From: Mariprofundus sp. NF
GTDB taxonomy: Bacteria; Pseudomonadota; Zetaproteobacteria; Mariprofundales; Mariprofundaceae
Length of the DNA: 64,000 nucleotides
NCBI RefSeq assembly: GCF_013387455.1
Contig: NZ_VWNC01000005.1
Location: 124,001 to 188,000, forward strand
Direction of reading: 5' to 3'
Shown: piece after piece, positions 59,185 to 63,169 of the stretch
How the letters are laid out: the number at the start of each line of letters is the position of its first letter
How positions within the stretch are numbered: the stretch's first letter is position 1
The notes under the pieces: generated by a model
Database searches by the model: none
What the model saw: only the letters and a program-made list of their open reading frames with translations
What the model was told of the DNA's origin: nothing
Made by a program: the position numbers and the translations under genes

Positions 59185-59220
59185 GAGAATAGCTCCTGTG
59201 AGATGATGGAGGGGCGCAAA

Positions 59221-62200
59221 ATGATTCAAGTAAAGCATATCTTTCGGCTGGTCTGTTTGGCTGTTGCGCTACTGATGGCGGGTGGCGCATATGCCGCATC
59301 CCTTGAAAAGATTGAGGTTAACTCACGTCTGAGTGAACCGTTTTTTGCTGAAATCCCTCTTACACTGGATGCCAATGAACTGGTCTCCAAGCTGTATGTC
59401 GAAATTGCGGCAGCTTCTGATTACAAGATTTTCGAGGTTTACCGTGATCCTGAGCTCAGCGCTATTCGTGCTGATCTTGAGAGTGATGCCCGTGGTGTGC
59501 GTGTTAAGCTCACGTCACGCACCGCTATTAAAGCCCCGTTTTTTAATCTGATCATAAAAATCCGTCATGGTCGCGTGGCCAATTTCAAAAAATATCCAGT
59601 CTTCCTTGAGGCACCGAAAACTGTTGTTCAGGCTGCAGAGAAGCCGCCGGTTCCGACTGTTCATGAAGTAACACCGATGGACAGCTCTGTGACCGAACAG
59701 GCCTCAGTGGCTGCCACTGAAGTTGAAGCGGCACCGGCTGTTGCCGATGTTCAATATTTTGAAGGCTGGGCCAGAACCGCTCGTTACGGCCCGATTGTTC
59801 GTGGTGATATGCTCTCCACAGTTTCTCAGCGTCTGCGTGTTGATCAGCGATATACAATGTCGCAGGTGATGGCTGCTCTGTTTGAGAAGAACAGGTCTAA
59901 ATTTGATAAAGGTAATATGAACCTGCTGATGAAGGGTCGTTTCCTTGATGTGCCGACAGCAACTGAGGTTGAGTCAATTTCAGCCAAAGATGCATACAAG
60001 CTTTTTACCGAGCATGAAAAACAGTGGAAAGAGCTGAACAGGCAGCCACGTTATGCGGCAGAAGCAGAAGTTCAGCGTACCCGCTACTCCAAGCGTGTAC
60101 GTATGGGTGAACAGGCTGATGGTGTAGCCGCTGCACCGGTGGCAGTAGCCACTGCCGAGATTGCAGAGGAGAAAGCAGCCGATAGTGGTGACGGAACGAC
60201 TGCACAGGATGGTGCTGAATCAGGAATAGTTGATCAGCAGCCTGCGCTTGCGGTTGATGAGAGTGCTGCCAAAGCCATCGCTGAAACGACTGCGCTGCTG
60301 GCTGAACTGCAGAAACAGAATGAGCTGTTGCAGCAGAAGCTTGAGCAGAGCGAGCAGAGTATTGCTGCACTGAGTCAGAAGGTTGATCAGGCTGCTACGG
60401 CCGCATCTGATGCCAATGTGAAACGTTTGGAAATACTGATGGCCCGTATGCAGGGCGAACTTGAAAAAGCAAAGGCCCAAACCGCCGCCCAGCAGGATGC
60501 CGGTGCCATGGATTGGGTGATCTGGCTGCTGATTGCACTGGTGGTTGTTTTACTGATAGTGGTTGTGTTGCTGATGCGCAGAGAACCTGCTCACCCGTCT
60601 GCTGCAGTAGTTGAGCCTGAGATTGAAGAGAAAGCTTCTGTCGGAGAGCCGCAACAGGCCACAGCAAGCTTGGATATTGAGCCTGAAACAGCGCAACAGC
60701 CACCTGCTGAAACGAAACAGGATGAACCTGTTGCAGAAACGGCTGCTCAGAAAGCCGTTGATGCTGTTGAAGAAGAGTCCGACCTGTTTGATTCGATCGA
60801 CAATTTCCCTGATGAGTTAACCGATACCGACACGGCTGAAATGGTGCCGTTTGATTTCGGTTCAATGGAAGATGCTGATCCTAATGTTGACTACCTCTCT
60901 GAGGCGGATGTCTATATCCGTTATGGTATGGAAGATGAGGCACTGCAGCAGCTTGATCTGGCGCTGCGTTTGAACGGAGACAATTCGGATGCACATATCC
61001 GCAAGGCAGAGTTGCTGTTTGCCAAAGGTGACGCTGGACTCTTCAATCAGGCCAATATTGCTGCGCTGGCTGCGCTTAGCGGGGCCGGACTGGCAGCGTA
61101 TAAAACAGCGACAAGCTCGTTCTCAGCTCTGGCTGATGAGCCCGTGGTGGTTGAAGCCTCCGAGGCAGACCAGCTGCAGGGTGATGACGTCGAAATTGGC
61201 ACAACAGAAGAGGTTGAATCAGCAGATGGACCAACGCTCGATTATGATTTCTCAGGACTGGATGACCTTGATGACGATATAGCCAAGGCCGCTGCAGCTG
61301 CTCCGGAAGAAACAGGTGAATCCCAGAGTGCCGATGATAATGATTTTGCGGAGATGGACTGGTTGCATGATGCTTCCTTCGAGGATGAGGTTGAGGGTGC
61401 TGCGACCAATGAAGAAGATCTTGCCGGTCAAACCATTGCACTGACAGCTGCAGATGGTGAAACCCAGATGATCGACTCCATTCTGGACGATTTCGAAGCT
61501 GCAGAGTCAACGGGCATCTCTCTGGCTGATGATGAGATTAACAGTGAGCAGCCGCTGGGGCTTCTGCCTGATGATGAAGGAACACTGGATCTGGAAGCCA
61601 TAGGTGCAACGCAGGAGCTGGATAACCTGCTCAATGCCTTTACTGAAGAGGGCGATGAGGAGTCACCTGCTGAAACAGCATCGGATGAAGCTTCAGATAG
61701 TGAGAGTCTTGATTTTGAGCAGGAGGTAACTGCTACACAGCATCTGGACAGTCTACTTGGTGAATTCAGTGATGATGACGGCATGTTTGACGGTGAAGAG
61801 GAGATTATTCCAGCCACGGCTACTGAATCCTCTGAAGATGAGGAACAGTTTGGCGCGACCCAGCATCTGGATGTGCTGATGAGTGAATTTTCCGACAGCG
61901 ATGAGCAAATGAGCGGCGTTGATTTTGAAGCGCTGACTCCTGCTGCTGTTGAAGAAAAGGGCCCTGCAGAGGGTGAAGAAGACCCTGAAGCTACCCAGCA
62001 GCTTGATCACCTTCTTAGTGCATTCTCAAGCCTTGAGGATGAGACACCTGAAGCGAGTGAAGACCCCGGCGCTACCCAGCAGCTTGACCATCTGCTTGGC
62101 TCATTCGCAAATCAGGATGATGAGCCGACTGCCAGTGCCGTCCAGAGGCCAGCTTCATTCGCTACTCAGGAGAGTGATTCATCTGTTTCGAGTGAAGATC

Positions 62201-62427
62201 CGGGTGCTACCCAGCAGCTTGATCATCTGCTTGGCGAATTTTCCGCCTTTGGTGATGGAGAGTCTTCCGAGGATGATTTTGAGGGCCTCTCTTTTGATAA
62301 GGTTGATCATCTCAGTGAAGATACAGATGAGATCGAAGTGGATCACTGTGCAACACAGGAGCTTGATCATCTGCTCAGCGAGTTCGCTGATGACGACGAT
62401 GAGGATGATAAGGATAAAAGCGCCTGA
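59221..62427 (+). CDS. FimV-like polar hub protein with C-terminal ATQxLDxLL repeats
   Basis: 1068 residues from ATG at 59221, which follows GGAGGGG by six bases; two ATGs upstream (59203, 59206) lack a site. A signal peptide (GGAYA) precedes the FimV N-terminal domain (IEVNSRLSEPFFAEIPL), a LysM-like part (about 185-245, RGDMLSTVSQRL), a coiled coil (about 359-415) and one membrane helix (about 432-454). The cytoplasmic tail is very acidic, with a TPR-like pair (about 558-610) and eight ATQxLDxLL-type repeats between 747 and 1060. FimV organises the pole, type IV pili and cyclic-nucleotide signalling. Genes for pilus motors lie elsewhere in the window. Confidence 0.92.
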   Translation: MIQVKHIFRLVCLAVALLMAGGAYAASLEKIEVNSRLSEPFFAEIPLTLDANELVSKLYVEIAAASDYKIFEVYRDPELSAIRADLESDARGVRVKLTSRTAIKAPFFNLIIKIRHGRVANFKKYPVFLEAPKTVVQAAEKPPVPTVHEVTPMDSSVTEQASVAATEVEAAPAVADVQYFEGWARTARYGPIVRGDMLSTVSQRLRVDQRYTMSQVMAALFEKNRSKFDKGNMNLLMKGRFLDVPTATEVESISAKDAYKLFTEHEKQWKELNRQPRYAAEAEVQRTRYSKRVRMGEQADGVAAAPVAVATAEIAEEKAADSGDGTTAQDGAESGIVDQQPALAVDESAAKAIAETTALLAELQKQNELLQQKLEQSEQSIAALSQKVDQAATAASDANVKRLEILMARMQGELEKAKAQTAAQQDAGAMDWVIWLLIALVVVLLIVVVLLMRREPAHPSAAVVEPEIEEKASVGEPQQATASLDIEPETAQQPPAETKQDEPVAETAAQKAVDAVEEESDLFDSIDNFPDELTDTDTAEMVPFDFGSMEDADPNVDYLSEADVYIRYGMEDEALQQLDLALRLNGDNSDAHIRKAELLFAKGDAGLFNQANIAALAALSGAGLAAYKTATSSFSALADEPVVVEASEADQLQGDDVEIGTTEEVESADGPTLDYDFSGLDDLDDDIAKAAAAAPEETGESQSADDNDFAEMDWLHDASFEDEVEGAATNEEDLAGQTIALTAADGETQMIDSILDDFEAAESTGISLADDEINSEQPLGLLPDDEGTLDLEAIGATQELDNLLNAFTEEGDEESPAETASDEASDSESLDFEQEVTATQHLDSLLGEFSDDDGMFDGEEEIIPATATESSEDEEQFGATQHLDVLMSEFSDSDEQMSGVDFEALTPAAVEEKGPAEGEEDPEATQQLDHLLSAFSSLEDETPEASEDPGATQQLDHLLGSFANQDDEPTASAVQRPASFATQESDSSVSSEDPGATQQLDHLLGEFSAFGDGESSEDDFEGLSFDKVDHLSEDTDEIEVDHCATQELDHLLSEFADDDDEDDKDKSA
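61459..62400 (+). repeat. Eight-copy ATQxLDxLLxxF protein repeat in the FimV-like gene
   Basis: Repeats begin at residues 747 (ETQMIDSILDDF, degenerate), 795, 837, 878, 923, 950, 995 and 1043. The best copies read GATQQLDHLLGEF. They are separated by 27-48 residues of acidic linker. The units at 923, 950 and 995 keep nearly identical codons, suggesting recent expansion. Confidence 0.9.
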
Positions 62428-62452: not shown

Positions 62453-63169
62453 ATGGCTGATACCAGTCTGTTTTACACTCTGCATCCGATTACCCGCGTT
62501 CTGCTTGCTCTGGCTCTGCTTATGCTGGCCAGTACGACCACTTCAACTGCTTATGGACTGATAGTGCTGTTGATCGCATGCCTCTCTGTTCGCGCCATCG
62601 ATAAACAGTGGGACAGGGTAGGGCGCTCTTTCGGCTTGTTACGCTGGTTTATCATTCCGATTATTCTTCTTCACCTCTGCTTTTCACCCGGACAACTGAT
62701 GCTACCGGGATGGGCTCTACCTTTTACATGGGAGGGATTGCAGCTGGGTCTGCAGCTATCCGTGCATCTGGCAGCCCTGTTTTTTGCAGCGATTGTCATG
62801 TTTCTTGCACTCAGACGCAGTGAATGGATTCAGCTCTTACTGCTGTTGCCATTTTTCAGCAGCTCTGCCATCACCTATCTGGTGATGATGGCGCCACTGC
62901 GTTCAAGTGTTGGCGAGCTACTGCAGGCATTTCGAAGTCGCTGGCAGCTGCGCAGATCATGGCAGCAGCTGCCTGTTATGCTTGTATCGACCTTCAGCAC
63001 TGCCTTAGCCCTGGCAGAAGTGCAATCACAGCAGTTATGGTTACGCTGGCCCTCATCGGCTGACAGCCAGTTTCATGCAACCTCTCAGGCAGCTGCTTCC
63101 AGCCTGACTGTTAATCTGCTCTGCCTCTCTGTTGCTGTTTCTGGCCTGGGGGTTGCATGGCAGATGTAG
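62453..63169 (+). CDS. EcfT/CbiQ-like membrane protein
   Basis: 238 residues with about five hydrophobic helices. It opens LFYTLHPITRVLLALALLMLA, has a long cytoplasmic loop with RSSVGELLQAFRSRWQLRRSW, and then ALALAEVQSQQLWLRW. This resembles the transmembrane T component of energy-coupling-factor transporters, where the coupling helices carry Ala-Arg-Gly motifs; here the second motif reads LRW, so the match is weak. No S component or ATPase is close. It sits between fimV and truA and overlaps truA by 13 bases, so it is co-translated with it. Confidence 0.75.
   Translation: MADTSLFYTLHPITRVLLALALLMLASTTTSTAYGLIVLLIACLSVRAIDKQWDRVGRSFGLLRWFIIPIILLHLCFSPGQLMLPGWALPFTWEGLQLGLQLSVHLAALFFAAIVMFLALRRSEWIQLLLLLPFFSSSAITYLVMMAPLRSSVGELLQAFRSRWQLRRSWQQLPVMLVSTFSTALALAEVQSQQLWLRWPSSADSQFHATSQAAASSLTVNLLCLSVAVSGLGVAWQM

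Follow-up and report, generated by a model that had tools for sequence, protein, structure and literature searches.

Eight copies of a short, constrained helix motif in the acidic tail of a Mariprofundus FimV: a probable docking array

Results

The fimV locus and its product

The window analysed here is a stretch of 64,000 nucleotides from Mariprofundus sp. NF, an iron-oxidising marine member of the Zetaproteobacteria. The list of open reading frames and the Pfam matches give the gene order asd–fimV–truA. The fimV reading frame (59203..62427, + strand, as are all features below) encodes a polar landmark protein of the FimV/HubP family of 1074 amino acids, matched by FimV_N (PF25800, E 7.6e-16) and by FimV_core (TIGR03505, E 1.3e-15; 57 bits, above the cut-off of 43.45). 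The closest named genome, Mariprofundus sp. KV, is 78% identical over the best segment. The Ig-like FimV_N domain spans residues 33–138 (59299..59616) and FimV_core residues 202–275 (59806..60027), followed by a hydrophobic stretch, DWVIWLLIALVVVLLIVVVLLM (residues 437–458, 60511..60576), as the single transmembrane helix. A cytoplasmic TPR-like domain of five helices occupies residues 556–640 (60868..61122); it was modelled by AlphaFold2 with a pLDDT of 95–98 over most of its length and was matched weakly by TPR_14. In a Foldseek search with the modelled protein this ordered part led to TPR proteins, with a best E of 0.007 for the whole query, diluted by the tail. The rest of the protein, residues 641–1074 (61123..62424), is an acidic tail predicted to be disordered (pLDDT mostly below 60), as had been supposed from the sequence alone; D and E account for 30% of residues 741–1074, and K and R for 1.5%.

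The protein thus has the FimV_core/LysM-like periplasmic domain, the one transmembrane helix and the large acidic cytoplasmic region of the FimV/HubP family. The FimV C-terminal TPR (TIGR03504) was absent, even at E 10, while the same model scored above its cut-off in FimVs of five genomes from other classes. Judged by its core, the window protein belongs to the FimV/HubP family, minus one usual domain.

Between fimV and truA (62453–63169) lies a membrane protein that is distantly CbiQ/EcfT-like (TIGR02454, E 0.0008, far under the cut-off). It has a counterpart at the equivalent place in G017 (L138) and another after the fimV tail in G086 (L139). The genome of the window (G000) also encodes a second, shorter FimV paralogue of 578 amino acids (contig C12, L087, 1969–3705), in which FimV_core is present and the motif tail described below is absent. 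Second FimV copies of this kind are present in many Zetaproteobacteria.

Eight motif copies in the tail

In the tail, x-[AE]-T-Q-x-[LI]-D-x-[LI]-[LM]-x-x-F occurs eight times between residues 752 and 1061 (61456–62385). The copies start at residues 752, 801, 843, 884, 929, 956, 1001 and 1049, a spacing of 27–49 residues. The sequence-only reading had counted eight copies at intervals of 27–48 residues; the count and the lower bound stand, and the upper bound is corrected to 49. Copy 1, GETQMIDSILDDF (61456..61494), is the weakest. Copies 2, 3 and 4, GATQELDNLLNAF (61603..61641), TATQHLDSLLGEF (61729..61767) and GATQHLDVLMSEF (61852..61890), scored E 4.0e-8, 2.5e-8 and 9.3e-9 with a motif HMM, and copies 5, 6 and 7, EATQQLDHLLSAF (61987..62025), GATQQLDHLLGSF (62068..62106) and GATQQLDHLLGEF (62203..62241), scored E 4.3e-7, 1.1e-7 and 4.9e-8. 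Copy 8, CATQELDHLLSEF (62347..62385; E 1.2e-10), which reads DHCATQELDHLLSEFADDDD in its 20-residue context, stands at what appears to be the ancestral C-terminal position and has a class-wide counterpart.

Among 20,000 composition-matched shuffles of the tail, TQx[LI]Dxx[LM] occurred 0.0028 times on average and once at most, against eight times in the tail itself, which rules out a chance origin of the eight copies. At the DNA level, identity among copies 5–7 is 79–87%; for the remaining pairs it is 48–79%. The same eight copies were found in the nearest relatives, L010 and L039 (Mariprofundus sp. KV). A consensus from 101 distinct copies, taken from the genus and from genus g12, reads [DE]-x-G-A-T-Q-E-L-D-x-L-L-[SG]-E-F-[SAT]-[DE]. 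A 39-row motif alignment shows no variation at the F and at the second L of the motif, and almost none at the T and at the first L; these columns are the hydrophobic stripe and the T. Elsewhere in the genome the strict DNA pattern had one match only, antisense in a ribosomal-protein-L14-like gene, and this match is due to chance.

Predicted structure of the tail

An AlphaFold2 model of the window FimV, with 41 homologues in the alignment, placed short helices on copies 2, 4 (residues 887–896), 5, 6, 7 and 8 (residues 1052–1059); past the TPR-like domain and its immediate end, the model shows no further helix in the tail. Since the pLDDT of the motifs is only about 50–70, their helicity is a tendency. 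Modelling of the repeats as one globular domain had been named in advance as an outcome that would speak against docking sites; the short helices, each standing alone within a disordered tail, do not support such a domain. The silence of TIGR03504 up to E 10 likewise rules out that the motif is part of the FimV C-terminal TPR, from which it had been held to be distinct.

In seven zetaproteobacterial FimVs of four genera (L026, L027, L038, L083, L093, L099 and L100) the motif is followed by a helical, TPR-like C-terminal cap, which is predicted to be folded (pLDDT about 90) and is possibly a remnant or a replacement of the FimV C-terminal TPR. In AlphaFold2 monomer models of such capped homologues, made from shallow alignments, the motif is a separate helix with a pLDDT of about 60.

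These models bear on the idea that the motifs are self-association stickers, which would bind each other or the TPR-like domain of FimV and so drive its clustering or condensation. The tail has a sticker-and-spacer layout, and a TPR-like domain is at hand within the same protein; TPR domains often bind short peptides. However, in the window protein no motif is modelled against the TPR domain (pTM 0.34, with low confidence in the tail), nor is docking of the motif on the C-terminal cap predicted for the capped homologues; as all of these are monomer models from shallow alignments, the evidence is weak. We regard self-association as improbable.

Constraint on motifs and linkers

Comparison of the window FimV with that of the nearest species, G015 (79% protein identity), gave a dN/dS of 0.019 for the motifs, 0.296 for the linkers and 0.164 for the rest of the protein, with dS values of 0.71, 0.71 and 0.75, respectively. 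Because dS is equal in the three partitions, the conservation of the motifs cannot be put down to recent gene conversion or to a low mutation rate. The codon test pools all eight copies, and constraint on single copies is read from the near-identity of each. Random blocks of 12 tail codons reached the identity of the motifs in 2 of 2000 cases. Four further close pairs with measurable dS (L023/24, L018/19, L014/15 and L016/75) showed the same direction, and in L013/L014, where the linker dS is saturated, identity was 82% in the motifs vs 47% in the linkers. For L011/L012, which are more divergent, the motif was not clearly more conserved than random blocks (108 of 2000). Almost all indels fell in linkers. 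We conclude that the motif set is under strong constraint, and conserved motifs between indel-prone, drifting linkers look like the pattern of short linear interaction motifs in disordered regions.

The same data weigh on the view that the repeats are a neutral consequence of tandem duplications within an acidic tail of low complexity. Recent perfect tandem expansions in G001 and G008 are in its favour, as is the variation of HubP acidic repeat number between close species (PMC12918733). Against it stand the motif dN/dS of about 0.02, the retention of eight copies in identical order across 79% protein identity and the near-fixed C-terminal position throughout the class. The codon test refutes neutral drift for the window copies, and we consider drift a very improbable account of the repeats.

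Distribution and origin of the motif

The motif search suggested by the sequence-only reading was run on 23 congeners and on 399 Pseudomonadota, and well-scoring matches were confined to zetaproteobacterial FimV. Among the 23 genomes of the genus, all matches with E < 0.1 lay in FimV or in FimV-tail-like contig fragments (G017 C61, confirmed; G012 C17, by appearance). Among the 399 Pseudomonadota, all matches with E < 0.001 were zetaproteobacterial, in the FimVs of Mariprofundus, g12 and g3 and in a tail fragment of G086; weaker matches elsewhere (E 0.003–0.1) are at the chance level for so many genomes. Scored with a PSSM, 19 of 21 congeneric FimVs carry 2–13 copies and two carry none. Copies are lost or degenerate in the Mariprofundus genomes G004, G021 and G018, and the array is thus not indispensable.

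A looser pattern, LxxL[LMFI]xx[LFWI], was present near the C-terminus of 53 of 57 uncapped zetaproteobacterial FimVs (1.3 expected), 15–49 residues and mostly 20 residues from the end, and directly before the cap in all seven capped ones (0.3 expected). On this sequence comparison the motif predates the repeat array, with a single C-terminal copy nearly class-wide that Mariprofundus would have amplified to 2–13 copies. As the FimV tree unites the multi-copy FimVs, 19 congeneric sequences, in one supported group, one amplification in Mariprofundus followed by gains and losses appears to be the simplest account.

Copy number has expanded repeatedly, through nine 57-bp tandem units in G001 and 81-bp units in G008. 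The units in G001 (L021) are nearly perfect repeats of DATEELGSLLSGFAEDDQK, a motif variant with G for D, and are a very recent expansion. The FimV tail of L012 (G007) has a different 36-residue unit, DDELDWLHAAPFEDEAAETGEPEVETSQAEPASEADKQ, in three tandem copies upstream of LD-like motifs.

Search for a partner and the likeness to FliM

The motif HMM found the motif in no other protein of the 23 congeneric genomes, all well-scoring matches being FimV; with the motif confined to FimV, a shared ligand gives no hint of the partner. Nor was there any sign of the co-conserved partner that had been named as support for docking. PilT-family proteins are encoded in 74 of 78 genomes, and such near universality leaves them without discriminating power for a link to pili. 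The FlhF model also matches Ffh/FtsY, and none of its matches exceeded the cut-off.

The motifs could mimic the N-terminal EIDAL helix of FliM and recruit one of the proteins known to bind it (CheY, the MinD-type ATPase FlhG) or their relatives ParA/MinD. EIDAL binds CheY (PMC6946799), the FliM N-terminus binds FlhG (PMC12826062, PMC11236974), and HubP interacts with ParA1 and FlhG and, through ParC/ParP, with chemotaxis arrays (PMC8789113). The FliM N-terminus of this genome, ILAPEEIEALMAEV, aligns gap-free to ATQELDHLLSEF, and the ELDxLL of the FimV motif resembles the E-I-D-A-L core. The score is not distinctive, however: 0.06% of the 13-mers in window open reading frames reach the score of the FliM N-terminus to the motif consensus, a weak likeness, and the motif HMM does not pick up FliM. 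FliM was not detected in the draft genomes of g12 (two genomes, 80–87% complete) or of g10 (four genomes, 86–98% complete), and the FimVs of both genera keep the C-terminal motif, so that FlhG or flagellar CheY cannot be the only client. A solely flagellar partner is disfavoured on these grounds, and, going by the failure to detect FliM in drafts, the original partner was probably not flagellar. The FliM-negative Mariprofundus with readable tails, G017 and G018, have decayed copies and represent one clade at most; a flagellar link of the array within Mariprofundus is no more than a lead.

Tails of other polar hubs also bear on mimicry of FliM. Of 40 FimV/HubP proteins sampled from Gammaproteobacteria, eight had tails enriched in EIDALL-like motifs (p < 0.01); over all 40 the pattern occurred 67 times vs 10.8 in shuffled and 26 in reversed tails, counts inflated by tandem duplication. 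Over the other zetaproteobacterial tails the regular expression gave 47 matches vs 39 in reversed tails, hence no enrichment, and only the fixed C-terminal position is informative there. Taken together, mimicry of the FliM helix seems unlikely.

Repeated EIDALL-like units were seen in the gammaproteobacterial tails L177, L179, L181, L173, L174 and L192, for example IDALLASF, DPDDIDALLDNV (L181), DDDDIDALLASF (L177), DSDDIEAMLAESV and FDIDALISEQ. We would guess that these loci are Vibrio- or Shewanella-like. Such repeats may hint, as a hypothesis, at a wider docking code.

Discussion

We favour a reading of the FimV tail as an array for multivalent docking, and think it probably correct. The earlier proposal of a docking tail is supported in part, in that the tail is disordered, with isolated, constrained helices that lie outside the C-terminal TPR and are restricted to FimV; its co-conserved partner did not emerge. 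Docking, avidity and the polar location of the window protein are what we infer from the sequence and the models. FimV would be anchored at the pole through its periplasmic/LysM part and one transmembrane helix, presenting to the cytoplasm the TPR-like domain and then some 430 disordered acidic residues. Eight segments of this tail would fold, at least upon binding, into amphipathic helices, each with a T close to its N-cap, an acidic rim, and the residues L-L-(L/M)-F at positions i, i+3, i+4 and i+7 as a hydrophobic stripe. With one client copy per helix, a single FimV would make clients denser at the pole and their binding more avid. In the ancestor of the zetaproteobacterial FimVs a lone helix of this kind would have stood some 20 residues before the C-terminus, and it would have been amplified in Mariprofundus.

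For HubP, client binding is reported chiefly at the acidic cytosolic modules (PMC8789113), and the site bound by FlhF lies outside the C-terminal TPR (PMC11236974). As to the client class, our tentative guess is a polarity regulator independent of the flagellum, possibly an ATPase of the ParA/MinD type or a type IV pilus regulator resembling CheY. How the acidic regions of HubP/FimV choose their clients has been stated to be open (PMC12918733); a defined 12-residue motif, whose copy number varies naturally from 0 to 13 and whose single-copy ancestor is class-wide, brings that question to the level of a peptide. In the literature searched, FimV was not paired with Mariprofundus, and HubP and EIDAL were not connected in the two papers in which both occur.

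Comparison with known systems

The acidic repeats of HubP in Vibrio and Shewanella belong to the same family and are likewise cytoplasmic, acidic, disordered and variable in number (PMC12918733), and they are the main client-binding region of HubP (PMC8789113); the Mariprofundus unit differs in being a 12–13-residue amphipathic helix within variable linkers. The C-terminal TPR of Pseudomonas-type FimV (TIGR03504) is also a client-binding site at the FimV C-terminus, but it is a folded TPR with the signature KLDLARAYIDMGD and is absent from the window FimV. The FliM EIDAL is, like the motif, a short acidic amphipathic helix with an E-Φ-D-x-L-L core, and it recruits CheY and FlhG (PMC6946799, PMC12826062); it occurs just once, N-terminally, in a C-ring protein, and its similarity score to the FimV motif is low.

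The paxillin LD motif (LDxLLxxL) has the same form of consensus, as an amphipathic helix in several spaced copies along a disordered scaffold (PMC7703752); ATRELDELMASLSD may be set against ATQELDHLLSEFSD. An amphipathic helix in a disordered region is also what AlphaFold2 predicts for the FimV motif. A PDB-wide profile search with the motif, up to E 10, returned two sequences: paxillin LD4 ranked first, at E 0.18, the other was a Dicer chain, and both hits fall short of significance. Paxillin is a eukaryotic protein, common descent with the FimV motif is not shown, and the likeness to LD4 can only be convergence. LD motifs of the paxillin type bind a dedicated domain such as FAT, of which no counterpart was identified in the Mariprofundus bacterium. 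The Mariprofundus copies end in F, not L, whereas the single C-terminal copies of g3, g4 and g9 fit LDxLLxxL (LDNLLSDL, LDSLLSEL). It is conceivable, if doubtful, that the acidic tails of several proteobacterial polar hubs, Mariprofundus FimV and some Vibrio-, Shewanella- and Alteromonas-like HubPs among them, are arrays of one kind of docking helix (ELDxLL/DIDALL), which would bring ATPases of the ParA/MinD type or CheY-like regulators together at the pole by the logic of the FliM N-terminal helix, as a bacterial counterpart of the paxillin LD strip.
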